Source of the DNA: Gammaproteobacteria bacterium
GTDB lineage: Bacteria > Pseudomonadota > Gammaproteobacteria > GCA-001735895
Length of the DNA stretch: 40,860 nt
NCBI GenBank assembly: GCA_030066335.1
Contig: JASJBV010000071.1
Location: 1 to 40,860 of the forward strand
Reading direction: 5' to 3'
Below, piece by piece: positions 5,003 through 40,488 of the stretch (the stretch's first letter is position 1; every line of letters starts with the position of its first letter). The position numbers were made by a program, and so were the translations under genes. The notes beneath the pieces are model-generated. The model made no database searches, was not told the origin of the DNA, and saw only the letters and a program-made list of their open reading frames with translations.

Positions 5003-6034
5003 GTGAGTGCCGATATATTAAGCCAGGATGAAGTCGATGCCCTGTTGCATGGGGTCGACGATGGAGTGGTAGAAACCGAGAGCGACGACAACCTGCAGGA
5101 CGGGGAAGCTCGAGCGTTCGACTTCAATAACCAGGAACGCATCGTTCGTGGTCGCCTGCCGACCATGGAAATGATCAATGAGCGCTTCGCCCGTTATTTT
5201 CGCGTCAGTTTTTTCAACATGTTGCGGAAAACCCCCGAGATCTCGGTCAATGGAATCCAGATGATCAAGTTCTCAGAGTATATCCATACCTTGTATGTAC
5301 CGACCAGCCTGAGTCTGATCAGGATGAGTCCATTGCGCGGGACCGGCATGATCATGCTGGATCCGAAGCTGGTATTCATCATCGTCGATAACTTCTTCGG
5401 TGGTGACGGCAGTATCCATGCCAAGATCGAGGGCCGCGAGTTTACCCAGACTGAACTGCGGGTCATCGAGAAGGTGGTGCATATGTGTTTTGCCGATCTG
5501 ACCCAGGCCTGGGATCCGATCATGAAAGTCGATTTCGAATATCACAATCACGAGGTCAATCCGCACCTGGCGAATATCGTCAGTCCTACCGAGGTGATCG
5601 TGGTCTCCAGTTTTCATATCGAACTGGAAGGCGGCGGCGGTGACATTCACGTGGTGTTCCCCTATTCAATGATCGAACCGATCCGCACGGTACTGGATGC
5701 CGGGGTGCAAAGTGATACCGATGAAATCGATGAGCGCTGGGCGGTGTTGTTAAAAGAGGAATTGATGCATGCCAAGGTCGAACTGAATGGCACCTTCTTC
5801 GAGAAAGAAATGAAACTGGCCGACCTCATCAACCTGCAGGCCGGAGATATCATTCCGATCGATATGCCGGAGCAGGTGACCTTATCCACCGATGACATGC
5901 CATTGATGCGTGGTCAGTACGGTGAGCACATGGGTAACGTGGCGGTGAAGATAGATCAGATCGTCGAGCTGGTCGACGCTGATGATGAAGCGCTGAAAAA
6001 TTTACAACTGACGATGAATAAAAAGGCTGGCTGA
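5003..6034 (+). CDS. fliM: Flagellar motor switch protein FliM
   Basis: 343 residues from GTG 5003. FliM forms the C-ring wall and receives CheY-P. The N-terminal CheY-binding peptide is present: ILSQDEVDALLHGVDDG at residues 5-21. The middle CheC-like domain follows (FFGGDGS, then TELRVIEKVVHMCF), and the C-terminal SpoA domain ends the protein (VELNGTFFEKEMKLADL, GDIIPIDMPEQV). Length is normal. The start codon is GTG with only a weak ribosome site, but the N-terminal peptide fixes it. The same short-motif pattern recurs in CheZ and, three times, in CheA. Confidence 0.98.
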   Translation: MSADILSQDEVDALLHGVDDGVVETESDDNLQDGEARAFDFNNQERIVRGRLPTMEMINERFARYFRVSFFNMLRKTPEISVNGIQMIKFSEYIHTLYVPTSLSLIRMSPLRGTGMIMLDPKLVFIIVDNFFGGDGSIHAKIEGREFTQTELRVIEKVVHMCFADLTQAWDPIMKVDFEYHNHEVNPHLANIVSPTEVIVVSSFHIELEGGGGDIHVVFPYSMIEPIRTVLDAGVQSDTDEIDERWAVLLKEELMHAKVELNGTFFEKEMKLADLINLQAGDIIPIDMPEQVTLSTDDMPLMRGQYGEHMGNVAVKIDQIVELVDADDEALKNLQLTMNKKAG

Positions 6035-15260: not shown

Positions 15261-15647
15261 ATGAACAAAGAAATGAATATCCTGATCGTTGATGATTTTT
15301 CGACCATGCGGCGAATCGTCAAAAACCTGTTGCACGATCTTGGATTTAGTAATACCTCGGAAGCGGATGACGGCCAGACCGCGTTACCGATGTTGAAAAC
15401 CGGTAAGTTTGATTTCCTGGTCACCGACTGGAACATGCCGGGCATGGATGGATTGACCCTGCTGAAAAAGGTCCGTGAAGACGATGCCCTGAAAGACATG
15501 CCGGTATTGATGGTCACGGCCGAGGCCAAGCGTGAACAGATCGTGGTGGCCGCGCAGGCCGGGGTTAACGGCTATATCGTCAAACCTTTTACCGCTGCTA
15601 CCCTGAAGGAAAAGATCGATAAGATATTCGAGAGGGTAGGTGGATGA
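15261..15647 (+). CDS. cheY: Chemotaxis response regulator CheY
   Basis: 128 residues, a single receiver domain. Phosphorylated CheY binds FliM to change motor rotation. It has the acidic pair in [13 protein letters not shown], the phosphoacceptor Asp56 in [11 protein letters not shown], the Thr/Ala switch region MVTAEA and the Lys in GYIVKPF. This is the form typical of CheY in CheZ-containing clusters. Its stop overlaps the cheZ start by 4 bases. Confidence 0.97.
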
Positions 15648-16390
15648 GCGACGCGGAAACCGCCAGCTACCTGACCGAAGAATATATCAACCGCCTCAAG
15701 GAACTGACCGAGGCCCTGGGTGCCGGCGAAAACCAGGTTGCTGATCAGCTGATCGGTGAACTGACCACTCTACGCGAATCCTCGCTGTTCCAGGAACTGG
15801 GCAAACTGACCCGCGAAATCCACGAATCCATCAACGCTTTCCAGGCCGATGCCAGAATCGTCGAACTGGCCCAGGAAGATATTCCCGATGCCAAGGAAAG
15901 ACTCAATTACATCATTACCAAGACCGACGAGGCCGCCCATCGGACGATGGAAGGCACCGAGGCGGTGCTGGAAATGGTTGAAGTATTCAATCACAAGGCG
16001 GATGACATCCAGCAACAATGGCAGAAGTTCAGAACCTCGGCGATGTCGAAACAGGATTTTCTGGCCATGAGCGATGATATCGACCGCTTCTTATCTTCGG
16101 TTTCAGAGGATAGCGATAAAGTTAAAGCCAAAATGACCGATATCATGATGGCACAGGATTACCAGGATCTCACCGGTCAGATGATCAAGCAGGTGATCAC
16201 GATGGTGCAGGAAGTCGAGGAAAAGCTGGTCAGGTTGGTGGCCATCTCGGGTGCCAGTCTCGGTGAGAGTCAGAAAAAAGCGGATGACGGCGCCACGGCG
16301 CATGGTCCGCAATTACCCAATGCGGACAAGCAGGAGGTCGCCACCAGTCAGAATGAGGTGGACGATTTACTGGCCAGCCTGGGGTTTTAG
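15644..16390 (+). CDS. cheZ: CheY-P phosphatase CheZ
   Basis: 248 residues, largely a long helical hairpin. CheZ dephosphorylates CheY-P. The catalytic segment is [12 protein letters not shown] with Asp175 and Gln179, matching the Asp/Gln pair of E. coli CheZ. The C-terminal CheY-tethering peptide is [13 protein letters not shown] (bases 16349-16387), after a flexible linker. The gene overlaps cheY by 4 bases. The C-terminal peptide resembles the FliM N-terminus and the CheA repeats in the same operon. Confidence 0.97.
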
Positions 16391-16411: not shown

Positions 16412-18622
16412 ATGGCGATAGATCTGGAAGATGACATTTTACAGGACTTTCTGGTTGAGGCCGGGGAGATCCTCGAATCGCTGAGTGAGCAATTGGTCGA
16501 CCTGGAGCAATCTCCGGACGATTCCGACCTGTTGAATTCCATATTTCGCGGCTTTCATACGATCAAGGGTGGCGGCAGCTTCCTGTCGTTGACCAATCTG
16601 GTCGATGTCTGTCACAAGGCCGAGGATGTGTTCAACCTGCTGCGCAACAACGAATTATCACTGAATGCAGACATGATGGATGCATTCCTGCGGGTGCTGG
16701 ATGAAGTCAACGATATGTTCGAACAGATCAAATCCGGTGAGGATCCCTCGGCCGCGGAGCCTGGATTGATCGCTGAATTAGTTGCAATGCAAGATCCGGA
16801 TGCCGCCGCGGCGTCCGAGCCAGCGGAATCAGCACAAGCGGAACCGGCCAGTGAGGCGGAAGTCGCTGCGAAGGCCAGCGACGAGGCGGAAGATGCCGAG
16901 ATAGAACAAGTGGTGGATGACGCCGCGGCTGCCGCTGCCGCCGAGGATTTCGTATCCGGTAAGGATGAGATTACCGACGAAGAATTCGAATCCCTGCTCG
17001 ACGCCCTGCATGGAACCGGCGGTAAGCCGCAGGCAGTAACAGGATCATCAACAGAAGACAAAGCACCCGCGCCAGCAGACGCCGCCGGGTCGGAAGAAAT
17101 CACCGATGATGAATTCGAGGCCCTGCTGGATGAATTACACGGTGAGGGTGCAGGACCGACATCAGCTAACGATGCCGCTGCCGAAACTGGCGCCAGTGAA
17201 ACACAACAGGGCGATGGCGAGCATATCAGCGATGACGAGTTCGATGCATTGCTCGATCAATTACACGGCAAGGGCAAGGGGCCTACCGCGGCCGCGGGCG
17301 ACAAGCCCGAGCAGCCATCATCCCCGGCGGCGAGTGATAAAGCCCCACCCGCAAAGGCCAAGCCGGCAGCGAAAAAAGCGGCAGCTAAAAAACCGACAGC
17401 CAAGACCGCGACTAAACCGGCTGCAGCTGCGAAAAAAGAAGCCTCCGTATCCAAGGGCGATACCACGGTCCGCGTGGATACCTCGCGCCTGGACGATATC
17501 ATGAACCTGGTTGGTGAATTGGTATTAACGCGCAATCGTCTGAATACCCTGCGCCAGTCCTTCGATGATGATCGGGTGCACAAGGCCATCTCCAGCCTGG
17601 ATGTGGTTACCGCTGACCTGCAGACCGCGGTCATGAAAACCCGCATGCAACCGGTAAAGAAAGTATTCGGCCGTTTCCCCCGGGTGGTACGTGATCTCGC
17701 GCGTAGCCTGCAAAAAGAGGTATCACTGGAACTGGAGGGTGAAGAAACCGATCTGGATAAAAACCTGGTCGAGGCGCTGGCGGATCCGCTGGTACACCTG
17801 GTGCGGAATTCAGTCGATCACGGCATCGAGATGCCGGATCAGCGTGAACAGGCTGGCAAGCCCCGGCAGGGCCGGGTCCTGTTGTCGGCGCAACAGGAAG
17901 GCGATCATATCCTGTTGTCGATCAAGGATGACGGGGCCGGTATGGATCCGGAAGTGCTGCGGCAGAAAGTAGTCGACAAGGGTCTGATGGATGCGGAAAG
18001 CGCCTCCAGGCTGGATGATAGCGGCTGTTTTGCCCTGATCTTCATGCCCGGCCTGTCCACCAAGGATGAGATTTCCGATGTTTCCGGCCGCGGGGTCGGC
18101 ATGGACGTGGTGAAAACCAAGATTTCCCAGCTCAACGGCACCATCGACATTAACTCCGCATTGGGCGAGGGTACCGAGCTGCGCATCAAGGTACCGCTGA
18201 CCCTGGCGATCCTGCCAACCCTGATGGTGCAACTGGGCAGCCGTAAATTCGCCCTGCCGTTATCCATCGTCAACGAGATTTTCGAGTTGAGTTCGAAGAA
18301 TTTCAGCGTGGTCGATGGCAAGGAAGTGGTACTCAACCGCGGTAAGGCGCCGCCGGTTTTCTACCTGCGTAAATGGCTGTTGAACGACAGCGACCAGTTC
18401 AAGGATTTCGCGGGTGACCCGCATGTGATCATGGTCCAGGTTGGTAATGAATCGGTAGGCCTGGTCGTCGATCAGGTGATCGGCCAGGAAGAGGTGGTGA
18501 TCAAGCCGCTGGACAAAATGTTACAGGGCCTGCCAGGGATGGCGGGCTCGACCATCACCGGGGATGGCAATATCGCGATCATTCTGGATGTGCCGGGACT
18601 GCTGAAAAGCTACGTGCAGTGA
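16412..18622 (+). CDS. cheA: Chemotaxis histidine kinase CheA (flagellar cluster)
   Basis: 736 residues. The P1 domain (about 5-110) has the phosphorylated His49 in FHTIKGGGSFL. Residues 110-345 form a low-complexity linker with no recognisable P2 domain. Instead it carries three copies of a short motif: EITDEEFESLLDALHG at 186, EITDDEFEALLDELHG at 229 and HISDDEFDALLDQLHG at 271, each ending in a Gly/Pro stretch. An Ala/Lys/Pro-rich segment follows. P3 begins near 350 (VRVDTSRLDDIMNLVGELV). P4 has LVEALADPLVHLVRNSVDHG, DDGAGMD and SGRGVGMDVVK, and P5 is CheW-like. No cheB follows it, unlike in related clusters. Confidence 0.97.
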   Translation: MAIDLEDDILQDFLVEAGEILESLSEQLVDLEQSPDDSDLLNSIFRGFHTIKGGGSFLSLTNLVDVCHKAEDVFNLLRNNELSLNADMMDAFLRVLDEVNDMFEQIKSGEDPSAAEPGLIAELVAMQDPDAAAASEPAESAQAEPASEAEVAAKASDEAEDAEIEQVVDDAAAAAAAEDFVSGKDEITDEEFESLLDALHGTGGKPQAVTGSSTEDKAPAPADAAGSEEITDDEFEALLDELHGEGAGPTSANDAAAETGASETQQGDGEHISDDEFDALLDQLHGKGKGPTAAAGDKPEQPSSPAASDKAPPAKAKPAAKKAAAKKPTAKTATKPAAAAKKEASVSKGDTTVRVDTSRLDDIMNLVGELVLTRNRLNTLRQSFDDDRVHKAISSLDVVTADLQTAVMKTRMQPVKKVFGRFPRVVRDLARSLQKEVSLELEGEETDLDKNLVEALADPLVHLVRNSVDHGIEMPDQREQAGKPRQGRVLLSAQQEGDHILLSIKDDGAGMDPEVLRQKVVDKGLMDAESASRLDDSGCFALIFMPGLSTKDEISDVSGRGVGMDVVKTKISQLNGTIDINSALGEGTELRIKVPLTLAILPTLMVQLGSRKFALPLSIVNEIFELSSKNFSVVDGKEVVLNRGKAPPVFYLRKWLLNDSDQFKDFAGDPHVIMVQVGNESVGLVVDQVIGQEEVVIKPLDKMLQGLPGMAGSTITGDGNIAIILDVPGLLKSYVQ
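16967..17284 (+). repeat. Three coding repeats in CheA linker (FliM/CheZ-like motif)
   Basis: Three 21-residue units start at bases 16967, 17096 and 17222 (residues 186, 229, 271), spaced 43 and 42 residues. The shared pattern is I-[ST]-D-[DE]-E-F-[DE]-x-L-L-D-x-L-H-G-x-G-x-x-P. They are diverged at the base level but strongly conserved as protein, so the motif is probably under selection. Confidence 0.9.
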
Positions 18623-18691
18623 GCGGCCGGGATGGGTGCGCCGGGAATTCGACCTTAACTCAGATAATGTACGGTAAGACTTTTTATCCAT

Positions 18692-19504
18692 ATGAAAACC
18701 TGGGCGTGTATCAATCAGAAAGGAGGGGTCGGTAAAACCACTTCCGTAGTCAGCCTGGCCGGTCATCTAAGCAAGACCGGGCAAAGGCTGTTGCTGATTG
18801 ACCTGGATCCGCACGGCTCACTGAGCAGTTACATGGGCTACAACCCGGATGAGATGGAAACCGGGATCTACTCATTATTTTCTGAACCCACCTCGAACCC
18901 GGCCGATGTCGCGCGCCTGTTATTGCCGACACCGATCGAAAACACTTACCTGTTTGCGGCTTCCACCGCGCTGGCAACCCTGGATCGTCAAATCGGTTCA
19001 GAGCAGGGCGCCGGCAAGGGACTGGTGGTGGCCAAGGCGATCGAGGCCGTAGCGGACAAGTTTGCCTACGGCCTGATTGACTGTCCGCCGATGCTCGGCA
19101 TCCTGATGATCAACGCGCTGGCCGCCTGTGATCAACTATTGATTCCGGCGCAAACCGACTACCTGACGCTGACCGGCCTGGAGCGGATGATGCATACCCT
19201 GGAGATGGTGGAAAAATCCCTGCACAAGAAAACCCCTTATATGATCGTGCCCACCATGTATGACGTGCGTACCCGTGCCTGCCAGGAAGCCTTGCATAAA
19301 ATGAAGGAAACCTATCGCTACAATGTCTGGGGCTCGGTCATACCGATCGATACCAGGTTTCGGGATGCCAGCAAGCGTGGGGTACCTTTACCAACTGTGG
19401 CCCCTTATGCCAGGGGTTCGCTGGCGTATAAAAAATTGTTGAATTTCCTGTTGGGAATTCAGGATGGAAAGCATGGCGCAGAAGAAAGACAACAAACTGC
19501 TTAA
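18692..19504 (+). CDS. parC: ParA-like array-positioning ATPase ParC
   Basis: 270 residues. It is a ParA/MinD-family ATPase with the Walker A motif NQKGGVGKTTS near the N-terminus, DLDPHGSLSSYMGY (Walker A' region) and IDCPPMLGILMINALAACD. In polar gammaproteobacteria, ParC places the chemosensory array at the cell pole; the position between cheA and parP/cheW matches that gene order, and this is why I call ParC rather than a chromosome ParA. It overlaps the next gene by about 40 bases. (Not related to topoisomerase IV ParC.). Confidence 0.9.
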   Translation: MKTWACINQKGGVGKTTSVVSLAGHLSKTGQRLLLIDLDPHGSLSSYMGYNPDEMETGIYSLFSEPTSNPADVARLLLPTPIENTYLFAASTALATLDRQIGSEQGAGKGLVVAKAIEAVADKFAYGLIDCPPMLGILMINALAACDQLLIPAQTDYLTLTGLERMMHTLEMVEKSLHKKTPYMIVPTMYDVRTRACQEALHKMKETYRYNVWGSVIPIDTRFRDASKRGVPLPTVAPYARGSLAYKKLLNFLLGIQDGKHGAEERQQTA

Positions 19505-20171
19505 TCCATCCAGTGCAGTAGAGGATTATTTCGACAGCCTGTTGCAGGATGTTGCGCTTGAGCAGGACAAGACTGGCAGCAATGGATTGAAGGGCGGAAT
19601 TCTGTTGATGCCGGAGTTGCGATCAGACCTGGCCAAAATTGATCAGGAGACGGCGGTCCCATCAGCTGAATCGGAACCCGCAGCAGTGACTGATGATGAT
19701 TCAGCGCAGGATTCTGCTGCGGATGATGCACAACCAGGTTATGAATTGCCGATTCAATGCCTGATGTTCCAGGTTGGCGATCAACAGCTATCCATGCCAT
19801 TGATCGATATGGGGTCGGTAGTCCCCTGGGTGGATAAGCTCACCTCATTACCGCATTCGCCTGATTGGTTCCTGGGCTTGCTGCAATACCGCGACAAGAA
19901 TGTCAAAGTGGCTGATACTGCAGGGATGCTACAGATCGAACGGGCTGCGGAGGCCGGGCATCCCGGGCATATGCTGGTATTCGCCGACGAAACCTGGGCG
20001 ATCACCTGCGATCAGCTGGGCGATGTTGTCGAGCTGCACCAGGAAGATGTGAAATGGGCCAGCCCGGATGCGAATAACCCGACCCTGGGGACCATCAAGC
20101 AATCACTGGCAATCCTGCTGGATCCCGGGAAAATCATCAACATATTGAAACAGCAGGAAAACCTGCACTGA
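19473..20171 (+). CDS. parP: CheW-like array-tethering protein ParP
   Basis: About 232 residues. The C-terminal half (about 90-230) is a CheW-like fold: IQCLMFQVGDQQLSMPLIDMG, DWFLGLLQYRDKNVKVADTA, and LVFADETWAITCDQLGDVVEL. The N-terminal half is acidic and flexible, with SAVEDYFDSLLQD near the start. ParP proteins hold CheA in polar arrays and connect it to ParC. Two starts are close (ATG 19464 and ATG 19473); both overlap the end of parC. The placement after parC and before cheW supports the name. Confidence 0.85.
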   Translation: MAQKKDNKLLNPSSAVEDYFDSLLQDVALEQDKTGSNGLKGGILLMPELRSDLAKIDQETAVPSAESEPAAVTDDDSAQDSAADDAQPGYELPIQCLMFQVGDQQLSMPLIDMGSVVPWVDKLTSLPHSPDWFLGLLQYRDKNVKVADTAGMLQIERAAEAGHPGHMLVFADETWAITCDQLGDVVELHQEDVKWASPDANNPTLGTIKQSLAILLDPGKIINILKQQENLH

Positions 20172-20261: not shown

Positions 20262-20732
20262 ATGACGGATATACAGGCAGATAGCGGGATCTTACAGTGT
20301 GTGACCTTCACCCTGGAAGATGAGACCTATGGCATCAATGTCATGCAGGTACAGGAAGTGTTGCGCGAGGTTGAAGTCGCTCCGGTACCCGGGGCGCCCA
20401 ACTATGTGCTGGGTATTATCAACCTGCGGGGTAATGTGGTCAGCGTTATCGATGCGCGTACCCGCTTTGGCCTGCCGGCCAAGGACAGTGATGAAATGAC
20501 CCGGATTATCGTTATCGAAGCCCAGCAGCAGATCATCGGCATCCTGGTCGATAGCGTGGCCGAGGTGGTCGATGTCAAGCGTGATGAAATCGATACCGCC
20601 CCCAATGTCGGTACCGCCGAAACCGCCAAGTATATCGATGGTGTGGTCAGCCGGGATGACACGCTGCTGATATTGGTTGATCTCAACAAGTTGTTGAGTG
20701 AAGCGGAATGGGGAGAAATCTCCAATTTATAA
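20262..20732 (+). CDS. cheW: Chemotaxis coupling protein CheW (flagellar cluster)
   Basis: 156 residues, a single CheW domain. CheW links receptors to CheA. Typical blocks are CVTFTLEDETYGINVMQVQEVL, VPGAPNYVLGIINLRGNVVSVID and FGLPAKD, followed by VDSVAEVVDVKRDEI. A ribosome site GGAGAAAAAC precedes the ATG. It stands last in the flagellar chemotaxis cluster, behind its own FliA-type promoter. Confidence 0.97.
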   Translation: MTDIQADSGILQCVTFTLEDETYGINVMQVQEVLREVEVAPVPGAPNYVLGIINLRGNVVSVIDARTRFGLPAKDSDEMTRIIVIEAQQQIIGILVDSVAEVVDVKRDEIDTAPNVGTAETAKYIDGVVSRDDTLLILVDLNKLLSEAEWGEISNL

Positions 20733-28716: not shown

Positions 28717-28810
28717 CTACGATATTCATAAAAAACGCATGCTGCCTGATCAGACAAGCGGGTCGTCAGGTACTACCGGCAGGGCAGCATCGAACAGTGG
28801 AGTATGCGCA

Positions 28811-30877
28811 ATGGCGATAGATATGGCCCAGTTTCACCAGGTGTTTTTCGAAGAAAGCTTCGAGGGGCTGGGCGTGATGGAAACTGGCTTGATGGAACTT
28901 GAGCCAGGTACCGCGGATGTCGAGGTCATCAACAGTATTTTCCGCGCCGCCCATTCGATCAAGGGCGGATCGGGCACCTTTGGCTTCAAGGATATCGCCG
29001 ATTTCACCCATGTCATGGAAACCCTGCTGGATGACATGCGCGAGGGTAAGCGTGAGATCACCGACAGCAACACCGATATCCTGTTGCGTGCGACCGATTG
29101 CCTGAAAGAAATGCTGGAAGCGGCACAGGCCGGTGACCAGGCCGATCCACAGCGAGTAATCCAACATCGACAGGAATTACAACAGGAACTGGATGGCCCG
29201 GCGACCATTTCAAGCGCGGCCACTGCCAGCCCGGCAGCCGCGGTCGAACCAGTGCAAGCCAGCGGCTGGCATATCCAGTTCAAACCCGCCCCGAATATGC
29301 TGCAAACCGGGAATGATCCAATGGCGATCATGCGGGAGCTGGCAGAACTGGGCGAACTGGAGCTGGTGCCCAACCTGCAGCGGATCCCGCGCTTCGAGGA
29401 GCTGGATGCCGAGGACTGCTATCTTGCCTGGGACCTGACCCTGCATGGCGAGGCCAGCGAGGCACAGGTCAGGGAAGTGTTCGCCTGGGTGGAAGATCTG
29501 TGTGAGCTCAAACTCGAGCCGCTGGTGGTTGCCATCACCGAGGTCGAATCCGATGTTGCAGTCGAGCAACCGCCGCTAACCACCGAGACCAAAGCCGAAC
29601 CGGTTAAACCAAGTTCTGACGCCAAGCAGGCATCGCGCAAACCGGTCACTGCCGGCTCCCAGCCGGCAGCCAGCTCGATCCGGGTCGATACCGGCAAGAT
29701 TGACGCCCTGATCAATATGGTCGGCGAGTTGGTGATCACCCAGTCGATGTTGGGTGTGATGGGTGAAACCATCGAGGAACAACAGGCGGTGACCCTGCAG
29801 GATATCGAAAAAATGCGTAACGGCCTGATGCAACTGGAACGCAACACGCGCGAGCTGCAGGAGAGCGTGATGCAGGTGCGGATGATGCCGATCAGTTTTT
29901 CCTTCTCGCGGTTTCCGCGCCTGGTCAGGGACCTGTCGGGCAAGATGGGCAAGAAAATCGAACTCAAACTGATCGGTGAGACCACCGAGGTGGATAAAAC
30001 CGTCATCGAAAAGATCGCCGATCCGTTGGTGCACCTGGTACGCAACAGCATCGACCATGGCGTTGAACTGCCGGAAGAGCGACGCGCCGCCGGCAAACCG
30101 GAACAGGGCACGATAGAACTCAATGCTTACCACCTGGGCGGCAATATCATCATCGAGATCAAGGATGACGGTAAGGGCATGGACCGCGATAAATTGCTGG
30201 CCAAGGCCATCGATAAGGGCCTGGTCTCCGCCGAGGACGTATTGAGTGACAAGCAGGTCTTCGAATTGATATTCATGCCCGGGTTTTCCACCGCGGAACA
30301 GGTCAGTGATGTTTCCGGGCGCGGTGTGGGGATGGATGTGGTCCGGCGTAATATTCAGGAACTGGGCGGTGGGGTCGAGATCGATTCGGCGTTGGGGGTC
30401 GGCACCACGATGAAGATCCGCCTGCCATTGACCCTGGCCATCCTCGACGGCCAGACGGTCCGGGTCGCTCAGGAAAATTACATCATCCCGATCATCTCGA
30501 TCGTCGAATCGATCCAGATCAGCCCTGAAATGCTGAACCGGGTAGGTGGACAGGGTGAAACATTTAAATTACGTGACGAGTATCTACCCATCATCAAGCT
30601 ACACGAGGTGTTTGCCGTCGAAGATTCAGCTCCGGTCAGATTAAGCGAGGGCCTGCTGGTGGTGGTTGAAGCCGATGGTGAACAGGTCGGCCTATTGGTC
30701 GATGACCTGTTGGGGCAACAGCAGGTAGTGATCAAATCGCTCGAGAGTAACTATAAAAAAATCGAGGGTTTTTCCGGTGCCACGATCCTTGGTGATGGCT
30801 CGGTTGCGCTGATCCTGGATATGCCGGGTATCCTGCGTCTGAACAAGAAACTGGCCAAACAGGCGCAAGCAGCATGA
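28811..30877 (+). CDS. cheA: Chemotaxis histidine kinase CheA (second cluster)
   Basis: 688 residues from ATG 28811 (GGAG upstream). P1 carries His48 in AAHSIKGGSGTFGF. Residues about 155-245 form a compact region (WHIQFKPAPNMLQTGNDP, then YLAWDLTLHGEASEAQVREVFAWVEDLCEL) in the place and size of a P2 domain. P3 begins at SSIRVDTGKIDALINMVGELV. P4 holds VIEKIADPLVHLVRNSIDHG, DDGKGMD and SGRGVGMDVV; P5 is CheW-like. Unlike the CheA at 16412 it has no FliM-like repeats. The stop overlaps the next cheW by 4 bases. Confidence 0.97.
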   Translation: MAIDMAQFHQVFFEESFEGLGVMETGLMELEPGTADVEVINSIFRAAHSIKGGSGTFGFKDIADFTHVMETLLDDMREGKREITDSNTDILLRATDCLKEMLEAAQAGDQADPQRVIQHRQELQQELDGPATISSAATASPAAAVEPVQASGWHIQFKPAPNMLQTGNDPMAIMRELAELGELELVPNLQRIPRFEELDAEDCYLAWDLTLHGEASEAQVREVFAWVEDLCELKLEPLVVAITEVESDVAVEQPPLTTETKAEPVKPSSDAKQASRKPVTAGSQPAASSIRVDTGKIDALINMVGELVITQSMLGVMGETIEEQQAVTLQDIEKMRNGLMQLERNTRELQESVMQVRMMPISFSFSRFPRLVRDLSGKMGKKIELKLIGETTEVDKTVIEKIADPLVHLVRNSIDHGVELPEERRAAGKPEQGTIELNAYHLGGNIIIEIKDDGKGMDRDKLLAKAIDKGLVSAEDVLSDKQVFELIFMPGFSTAEQVSDVSGRGVGMDVVRRNIQELGGGVEIDSALGVGTTMKIRLPLTLAILDGQTVRVAQENYIIPIISIVESIQISPEMLNRVGGQGETFKLRDEYLPIIKLHEVFAVEDSAPVRLSEGLLVVVEADGEQVGLLVDDLLGQQQVVIKSLESNYKKIEGFSGATILGDGSVALILDMPGILRLNKKLAKQAQAA

Positions 30878-36539: not shown

Positions 36540-37031
36540 ATGACGACAGATCAGACACAGCAAGCAGGCGCAGACAACAACCAGGAATATCTGACTTTCA
36601 GCCTGGGTAACGAGCAATACGGAGTCGATATTCTCAAGGTGCAGGAGATCCGGGGCTGGGAACCCCTGCGCGAAATGCCGGATGCTCCTGCCTATTACAA
36701 GGGGGTGCTGGATTTTCGCGGCCATATCTTACCTGTTGTCGACCTCAGGATTCGGTTCGGGGAAGAGCAGGTCAACTACAAGAGCACTACCGTGATCATT
36801 GTGCTTAACAATGATGATGCAGACAACATGATGGGCGTGGTAGTGGATGCGGTGTCCGATGTATTGACGGTCAGGCAAAGCGAGATCAAAGCGGCACCGG
36901 ATATGGGCAGCAGGATTAAAACCGATTATGTGTTGGGGATGGTCAGCCGAGCTGACGACATGATCATGCTGGTGGATGCTGAGCGCCTGATCGACGTGGA
37001 AGAATTGGAGGTTGCAGACACCGTTTGCTGA
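36540..37031 (+). CDS. cheW: Chemotaxis coupling protein CheW (second cluster, copy 2)
   Basis: 163 residues from ATG 36540 (AAGG upstream; a TTG at 36513 is in frame). Core blocks: LTFSLGNEQYGVDILKVQEIRGW, PLREMPDAPAYYKGVLDFRGHILPVVDLRIRF, MGVVVDAVSDVLTVRQSEI. It is similar to the CheW at 30874 in EIRGW and its C-terminus, so the two probably arose by duplication. It follows the Aer-type receptor by 27 bases and is followed closely by the STAS gene. Confidence 0.95.
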   Translation: MTTDQTQQAGADNNQEYLTFSLGNEQYGVDILKVQEIRGWEPLREMPDAPAYYKGVLDFRGHILPVVDLRIRFGEEQVNYKSTTVIIVLNNDDADNMMGVVVDAVSDVLTVRQSEIKAAPDMGSRIKTDYVLGMVSRADDMIMLVDAERLIDVEELEVADTVC

Positions 37032-37038
37032 AACGAAT

Positions 37039-37758
37039 ATGGCCAAGAAATCTACCCCTAAACAAGTTATTGACTATGATCCGCTGGCCTGGCTGGACGA
37101 AGCCGCCGCGACCGAGGCAGAGGAAACACCGGCATCCGCAAGCAAAGCGAGCCGCAACAAGCCGACTACTGACAAGCAGGGGAGAAGAACGGAAGCAAAA
37201 ACCTCAGCGGCGCCAGCTCAGGAACCGGTTAGCGAGGAATCTGCCGGTTATGGTTTCTTCGCTGAAGAACCTGAGCTTAGCTCGGCGCAGGCATCCGCCC
37301 AGACAAATGCCGGAAGTGTTGAGCAGGAGCAGACAGAAACCGCCGCCTATGGCTTTTTTGCTGATGACGCGTCCGCTCTCACCGGCGATAACGCTACAGT
37401 CGAGGCCACGGGTGAGAAGATCGATCTGGGGGCGGAGCTGACCATCCGCTCGATTGCCGAGCGTAAGACGATGATCGACCGGGCCCTGGCAACCGGTGAG
37501 GATATCCGTATCGATATCAGTCAACTACAAAAAATCGACAGTGCCGGGGTGCAGATGATCTATAGTCTGATCCACAGCCTGCAGCAAACAACCCAGGCGG
37601 TTTGCTGGGTCGGCAGTAATCCAATGATCGACGATGCAGCCGGTCTGCTAGGGCTGGCGCCCCTGCTCGATGCTCAGCAAACAGCTGATGCCTACGGGTT
37701 TTTCGCTGATGAAACAGAACCGGATGTAGAAGCGGACGGCGCGTTTGGCTTTTTCTGA
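37039..37758 (+). CDS. STAS-domain protein with YGFF repeats
   Basis: 239 residues. Residues about 120-215 form a STAS domain (KIDLGAELTIRSIAERKTMID, IRIDISQLQKIDSAGVQMI); the Ser of KIDSAG sits at the phosphorylation site. The N-terminus (to about 118) is a flexible Ala/Glu/Ser-rich region. A short motif is repeated: GYGFFAEE (70), AYGFFADD (103), AYGFFADE (218) and a terminal AFGFF (235-239). No ribosome site is visible at ATG 37039, so translation is probably coupled to cheW (8 bases before). The role is unknown; it is likely an adaptor in the CheA/CheW array. Confidence 0.85.
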   Translation: MAKKSTPKQVIDYDPLAWLDEAAATEAEETPASASKASRNKPTTDKQGRRTEAKTSAAPAQEPVSEESAGYGFFAEEPELSSAQASAQTNAGSVEQEQTETAAYGFFADDASALTGDNATVEATGEKIDLGAELTIRSIAERKTMIDRALATGEDIRIDISQLQKIDSAGVQMIYSLIHSLQQTTQAVCWVGSNPMIDDAAGLLGLAPLLDAQQTADAYGFFADETEPDVEADGAFGFF

Positions 37759-39387: not shown

Positions 39388-39438
39388 TATCGGACATTGG
39401 CGGACAGTTCGATGGCTGGCCCGAATGGGGGTCCGGGC

Positions 39439-40488
39439 ATGATCAAGGTCCTTATCATCGATGATTCGGCACTGATCCGCCAGTTGCTGTCGGAGATCCT
39501 GTCCAGTGATCCGCAGATAAAGGTGGTGGGGGTTGCCCAGGACCCCTACATCGCTCGGGATAAAATCAAGAAACTCAACCCCGATGTGCTGACCCTGGAT
39601 GTGGAAATGCCGAAAATGGACGGCTTGACCTTCCTGCGCAACCTGATGCGCCTGCGGCCGATGCCGGTGGTCATGGTCTCCAGTCTGACCGATGCCGGGG
39701 CCGATGTCACCCTACAGGCACTGGAGCTGGGCGCGGTCGATTATGTCTCCAAGCCCAAGATCAACATCCAGGAAGAACTCAAGACCTATGCCAAGGAAAT
39801 TATCAGCAAGGTCAAAACCGCGGCCAGGGCACGGGTGCAGGGTTCCAACCTGCCGACCCCGCAGGCCAGGGACCTCAGTGACATAGCCGCGCGCAAGCAA
39901 TTCAAGACCAGCGATATGATCATTGCGATGGGTGCCTCAACCGGCGGTACCGAGGCACTCAAGGACGTGATTTGTCAATTACCGCCAACGACACCGGGCC
40001 TGGTGATCACCCAGCATATCCCGGCGGCCTTCAGCAAGCCGTTTTCCCAGCGCCTCAATGCCAGCTCGGCGATGATCATCACCCAGGCCGAACACGGTCA
40101 GCAGATTCTGCCCGGCCATGGCTATCTGGCGCCCGGTGATAAACACCTGGAGGTGGTGCGTGACGGTGCCCGTTACATCTGCAAGCTGCTGGACAGTGAA
40201 CCGGTCAATCGCCACAAACCCTCGGTTGAGGTCATGTTTCATTCAGTCGCCAAGAATGTCGGCGCCAATGCGATCGGCGTGTTGCTGACCGGGATGGGAA
40301 ACGATGGCAGTGAGGCCATGGGTGAAATGCAGCAACTGGGGGCGGCCACCATCGCCCAGGATGAGGCCAGCAGCGTGGTGTGGGGGATGCCCGGCGAGGC
40401 GGCCAAGCGCGGTTATGCCGATGAAGTGCTACCGTTGCACCAGATCGCGGAAAGAATCCTGTTCTATGTTTCCAGGCACGGACAGTGA
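39439..40488 (+). CDS. cheB: Chemoreceptor methylesterase CheB
   Basis: 349 residues. The receiver domain (1-125) has IDDSALIRQLL and Asp54 in LTLDVEMPKMDG. The methylesterase domain has Ser167 in MGASTGGTEAL, His193 in TQHIPAAFS and Asp289 in TGMGNDGSEAM, the three catalytic residues, spaced as in E. coli. ATG 39439 is preferred because MIKVLIIDDS is the usual start and GGGGG lies 8 bases upstream; ATG 39412 and TTG 39397 are in frame. It is the only CheB in the window and ends the operon. Confidence 0.98.
   Translation: MIKVLIIDDSALIRQLLSEILSSDPQIKVVGVAQDPYIARDKIKKLNPDVLTLDVEMPKMDGLTFLRNLMRLRPMPVVMVSSLTDAGADVTLQALELGAVDYVSKPKINIQEELKTYAKEIISKVKTAARARVQGSNLPTPQARDLSDIAARKQFKTSDMIIAMGASTGGTEALKDVICQLPPTTPGLVITQHIPAAFSKPFSQRLNASSAMIITQAEHGQQILPGHGYLAPGDKHLEVVRDGARYICKLLDSEPVNRHKPSVEVMFHSVAKNVGANAIGVLLTGMGNDGSEAMGEMQQLGAATIAQDEASSVVWGMPGEAAKRGYADEVLPLHQIAERILFYVSRHGQ

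Follow-up and report, generated by a model that had tools for sequence, protein, structure and literature searches.

The stretch of DNA analysed here, called the window throughout, covers positions 1 to 40,860 of contig JASJBV010000071.1 from a Gammaproteobacteria bacterium (assembly GCA_030066335.1) and is a flagellar and chemotaxis region with two chemosensory gene sets. The genes of the first set lie in the order cheY, cheZ, cheA, parC-like, parP-like and cheW, the last starting at 20262 (Table 1). The cheA of this set, which belongs to an F6-like system and encodes a protein of 736 amino acids, is the subject of this work. The linker between its P1 and P3 domains contains three copies of the sequence I-[TS]-D-[DE]-E-F-[DE]-x-L-L-D-x-L-H-G.

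An earlier note on this DNA, made from the sequence alone, had pointed out three such units (as I-[ST]-D-[DE]-E-F-[DE]-x-L-L) in place of P2. The units are confirmed by translation of the open reading frame, and the same repeat family was recovered independently at the DNA level with spacings of 129 and 126 nucleotides. Chance was rejected as the origin of the repeat, as 200,000 shuffles of the linker yielded the pattern 0 times against the three copies observed. The codon differences between copies are mostly synonymous (8 synonymous versus 3 or 5 non-synonymous, and 6 versus 3). Recent DNA duplication was therefore also rejected, and the repeated peptide is old and under purifying selection.

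Table 1 Genes and repeat units of the window discussed in the text
Feature	Position	Strand	Evidence
cheA, F6-like system: P1 (residues ~1-130), disordered linker (residues ~131-345) with three repeats, P3-P5	16412..18622	+	Open reading frame, Pfam domains, AlphaFold2 model of residues 1-420
Repeat 1, ITDEEFESLLDALHG, residues 187-201, model helix 189-200	16970..17014	+	Translation, DNA repeat, AlphaFold2
Repeat 2, ITDDEFEALLDELHG, residues 230-244, model helix 232-243	17099..17143	+	Translation, DNA repeat, AlphaFold2
Repeat 3, ISDDEFDALLDQLHG, residues 272-286, model helix 274-284	17225..17269	+	Translation, DNA repeat, AlphaFold2
cheY, proposed ligand	15261..15647	+	Open reading frame, Pfam, residue comparison
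cheZ, C-terminal CheY-binding tail as comparison motif	15644..16390	+	Open reading frame, Pfam
fliM, N-terminal LSQDEVDALLHG as comparison motif	5003..6034	+	Open reading frame
parC-like, ParA-family ATPase	18692..19504	+	416 bits to ParC profile
parP-like, CheW-like AIF domain; NNPTLGT at the RPWLAGT motif	19464..20171	+	Domains, alignment
Second cheA (F7-like), globular P2, no repeats; internal control	28739..30877	+	Co-linearity with E. coli CheA, P2 profile

Pfam matched Hpt, H-kinase_dim, HATPase_c and CheW in the window CheA and left P2 unmatched. Because Pfam also fails to detect the P2 of the second CheA in the window, this silence is not used as proof. The missing P2 was judged instead by an AlphaFold2 model, a fold search and a class-specific P2 profile. 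In the model, which was computed for residues 1-420 with 34 relatives, most of P1 has a predicted local distance difference test score (pLDDT) above 90, and the P3 helices are present. The chain between them is mostly below 50 except for three helices that coincide with the three repeats, with block mean scores of about 79-85. A further helix at residues 160-177, outside the repeats, is modelled with lower confidence. No strands are modelled between P1 and P3, and therefore no P2 fold. The significant Foldseek matches were CheA P1 structures plus one P1-CheY/P2 entry (2lp4), which aligned at a root-mean-square deviation of 20 Å and is unfit as a P2 match; no separate P2 domain was matched. The F6 CheAs score at most 6.3 bits with the P2 profile. 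Outside the repeats, the linker is rich in Ala, Pro and Glu and is predicted to be disordered. All the above indicate that the window CheA lacks a folded P2 and that predicted short helical motifs in tandem occupy its place, as the earlier note had supposed.

The array is not special to this genome. The sample consisted of 229 genomes of the class, of which 96 gave a strong match, and the neighbourhoods of nearly all of these were fetched. Repeats were found in 84 of the 89 same-class CheA linkers long enough to judge, with 209 copies in total, mostly two or three per linker and up to seven. Of the five repeat-free linkers, four (L099-L102) come from CheAs that the tree places outside the F6 group, and the fifth, L097, shows degenerate copies by eye. 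At one further locus (L093), where the CheA frame is split, two repeat copies lie upstream. All 80 CheAs from named genome contigs carry two to five copies each, and the genera include Pseudomonas, Stutzerimonas, Marinobacter, Shewanella, Pseudoalteromonas, Alteromonas, Marinomonas and Methylomonas. The idea of an oddity of the window genome was therefore rejected. Among the 209 copies, E+4 is kept in 207, F+5 in 209, an acidic residue at +6 in 207 and L+9 in 207. This is a genuine array, old and class-wide.

The copies are not all alike. The CheA with seven of them (L083 10168-11805, minus strand) has a linker of about 546 amino acids. The HG tail is absent from the first copy in 31 of 74 cases and present in 109 of 125 later copies (loci L038-L131), a difference in sequence that hints at two repeat subtypes with perhaps different partners. 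In one genome that lacks ParP (L045 5382-5927, plus strand), the unit is lengthened to LPEGVDPDG[ED]ITDDEFEALLNQRD and has lost the LHG tail; it occurs there three times, almost unchanged.

The second CheA of the window served as an internal control. It is co-linear with E. coli CheA through the P2 region; this full-protein co-linearity was used instead of the profile-profile match of the F7 P2 alone to the E. coli P2, which is weak. A P2 signature was present in 28 of its 30 relatives in the class, itself included, and repeat copies were found in none of these 30 P2-type CheAs. Repeats and P2 thus look mutually exclusive by CheA class, although it must be borne in mind that class and domain content are inherited together.

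We favour, with a probability of roughly 0.48, the reading that the repeats form a multivalent docking array which replaces P2 in the F6-class CheA and whose main ligand is most likely CheY, perhaps with ParP as an additional reader where ParP exists. The long disordered linker would carry short helix-forming motifs, each of which would bind the alpha4-beta5-alpha5 face of CheY as the FliM N-terminus does. Bound helices would raise the local concentration of CheY beside phospho-P1 and might thereby speed phosphotransfer, and several copies would increase capture even if none of them bound CheY tightly. In systems that have ParP, at least one copy may double as the LID, the CheA region gripped by the ParP AIF domain. 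We infer CheY as the ligand because the repeats occupy the position of the absent P2, because FliM residues that contact CheY align with repeat residues, because the CheY-F6 face residues are conserved, and because the repeats persist in at least eight genomes that have neither ParP nor ParC.

The FliM of the window (open reading frame 5003-6034) reads MSADILSQDEVDALLHG; its LSQDEVDALL and the NEVDDLL of CheZ are both encoded in the window, exactly as the earlier note reported. FliM residues in contact with CheY include L6, Q8, I11, D12 (to K119), L14, L15 and H16/D16 (PMC3774744). Their counterparts in the repeat are I, D/E, F, E/D, L, L and D, so that L6, I11, D12, L14 and L15 correspond to I0, F5, D/E6, L8 and L9 by conservative changes. 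The window CheY has K91, R92, Q94, I95, A99, V103, Y106, K109, K117 and K119 (E. coli numbering), which is the CheY-F6 state of the face that meets FliM and P2. Across 81 loci, I95, Y106, K109 and K119 are invariant and R92, Q94, V103 and K117 mostly fixed. When CheY-F6 was recruited by a P2-bearing F7 system, the changes R92K, Q94N and V103A faced P2 and K117E reversed a charge (PMC7184735). These face changes fit another docking partner in the F6 CheA, although they do not name it.

Several results weigh against CheY as the ligand. The central hydrophobic position is Phe in 209 of 209 repeats, whereas all 72 CheZ tails compared and the window FliM have Val there, and the LHGxG tail has no counterpart in FliM or CheZ. 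A position-specific matrix built from 61 CheZ tails detects a known relation, since it ranks the window FliM top among all non-CheZ genes. With the same matrix the CheA units do not rise above background, since 150 of 1103 other genes score higher than the median CheA. A generic helix cap accounts for part of the likeness: each model helix starts right after the I-[TS] of the repeat, and the pattern I-[ST]-x-x-E-F fits a common capping box formed by T/S and E, in which I and F would make the hydrophobic staple. How easily such likeness arises can be seen from weak matches to SHOCT (PF09851). The window CheA scores 18.7 bits, under the curated cut-off of 27, and when the 89 linkers and one P2-type control CheA were scanned together, 78 of these 90 sequences gave weak matches.

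Docking was predicted with a single chain from Pseudomonas mosselii (locus L210), in which cheY, cheZ and cheA lie in one frame; stops were read as Ser and 59 further rows were supplied. The repeats in this joined CheY-CheZ-CheA-linker chain reached a pLDDT of 68-80, no higher than the 79-85 of the window CheA without CheY, a baseline from another species. The CheZ tail, a known CheY binder included as the positive control, reached about 62-69 and so was not docked confidently either. Neither the repeat nor the FliM N-terminus had a useful match when solved structures were searched by sequence. The likeness to FliM and CheZ peptides is suggestive, and by itself not significant. Of the tandem CheY-docking P2 substitute put forward in the earlier note, the replacement of P2 and the alignment with FliM contact residues stand; the likeness is at background level, and Phe always takes the Val/Ile position.

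The main rival, which we consider possible if rather unlikely, holds that the repeats are the LID itself. They would then be docking sites for the AIF domain of ParP, a protein that links the chemosensory array with ParC, the polar anchor, and stabilises CheA within that array. The LID is said to be the region bound by ParP, present only in CheAs with ParC/ParP, and it is described as lying between P2 and P3 (PMC7534058). The position of the repeats ahead of P3 is as required, and most repeat-bearing loci, the window included, encode ParC and ParP beside cheA. Our ParP profile (A1) splits cleanly, clear ParPs scoring at least 65 bits and CheW-type cross matches at most 43, and the ParC profile (A6) gives more than 400 bits for cheA neighbours and about 175-193 for ordinary ParA proteins. 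By these profiles at least eight repeat-bearing genomes (G154, G192, G010, G001, G026, G172, G170 and G022; 91-100% complete) have neither protein, their ParP hits being absent or at most 43 bits and their ParC hits about 175-193 bits. A genome with a divergent ParC/ParP pair (G012) was left out of this count, and in two others, G056 and G193, ParC is divergent and ParP absent. The eight are scattered on the CheA core tree, a quick tree in which several deep forks are weak, and some adjoin ParP-bearing relatives; in the basal ones the absence could be original. In G154, a member of the same genus as the window, cheA is directly followed by cheW.

The repeats therefore do not behave as a region present only with ParC/ParP, and because they persist without both they are not only ParP sites. 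The proposal in the earlier note that the units bind ParP is thus weakened as a sole role, and the repeats may still include the LID. In the ParP-like protein of the window, the Arg and Trp that are nearly always kept in the RPWLAGT motif are missing, which also counts against the rival. W305A in V. cholerae ParP abolishes binding to CheA; whether W305 is the equivalent of the missing Trp is uncertain. ParP may be degenerating in this lineage, with motif residues missing here and both parP and parC absent from the G154 genome. The gap between cheA and parC in the window (18622-18692) is only 70 nucleotides, compared with 1-3 kb at most related loci, and the sole cheB seen in the window (39397-40488) belongs to the second cluster.

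A second alternative, which appears improbable, gives the repeats a regulatory role in the kinase instead of CheY docking. Their partner would then be some other component of the chemosensory array or of the kinase: the P4 ATPase domain, CheB, or a CheW-type domain, be it that of CheW, CheV or P5. The strong conservation independent of ParP, the invariant Phe that sets the repeats apart from known CheY peptides, and the conserved LHGxG tail would all suit such a role, for which we found no positive evidence; a role for CheB alone is weakly opposed by the window itself, where the repeats are present although no cheB separates cheA from parC. A mere structural spacer or low-complexity linker without ligand would match the Ala/Pro/Glu-rich, disordered remainder of the linker, and is very improbable, because key residues hardly vary among the 209 copies, which come from many families, and because the copies differ from one another mostly by synonymous codons.

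CheY docking thus appears the most likely single role, and it need not exclude ParP binding. A doubtful generalization is that in the F6 systems of Gammaproteobacteria, such as those of Pseudomonas, Shewanella and Marinobacter, the folded P2 has been replaced by a disordered array of FliM-like CheY-docking helices, some of them read by ParP. If so, phosphotransfer and the positioning of the array could be in competition for shared sites. If the LID is this array, the reported restriction of the ParP-binding region to CheAs with ParC/ParP needs qualifying.

Another linear-motif array may be common to two further proteins. A STAS-domain-like protein of the second che cluster (37012-37758, plus strand) has YGFFA[ED] repeats (YGFFAEE, YGFFADD and YGFFADE) with a terminal FGFF, and the linker of an F7-like CheA from another genome (L102 4881-7280, plus strand) has repeats of the FGFFDDAPGSE type.

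Our literature searches, whose coverage did not extend to the original LID-defining papers, returned no description of these repeats. Like P2, the CheY/CheB-docking domain, the array is held flexibly between P1 and P3, and the same job is proposed for it. P2 is one folded alpha/beta domain, whereas the window linker is modelled as several isolated helices without strands. With the FliM N-terminal and CheZ C-terminal peptides the repeats have in common a short amphipathic helix, the pattern E-hydrophobic-[DE]-x-L-L and similar residues at the FliM contact positions; they differ in being internal and tandem, in the invariant Phe for Val/Ile, in the extra LHGxG tail and in their background score with the CheZ profile. 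The LID of Vibrio CheA lies in the same general region as the repeats of CheAs encoded mostly beside parC and parP. The two differ in that the LID is reported to be confined to CheAs with ParC/ParP, whereas the repeats also occur where both are absent. According to a survey, more than half of CheAs have no P2 (PMC10542144), and the window CheA is such a case, with an unstructured P1-P3 region. The parts of the survey consulted here mention no conserved repeated motif in that region. The defined, mutable motif array, present in well-studied genera, offers a direct way to test how CheAs without P2 hold CheY.
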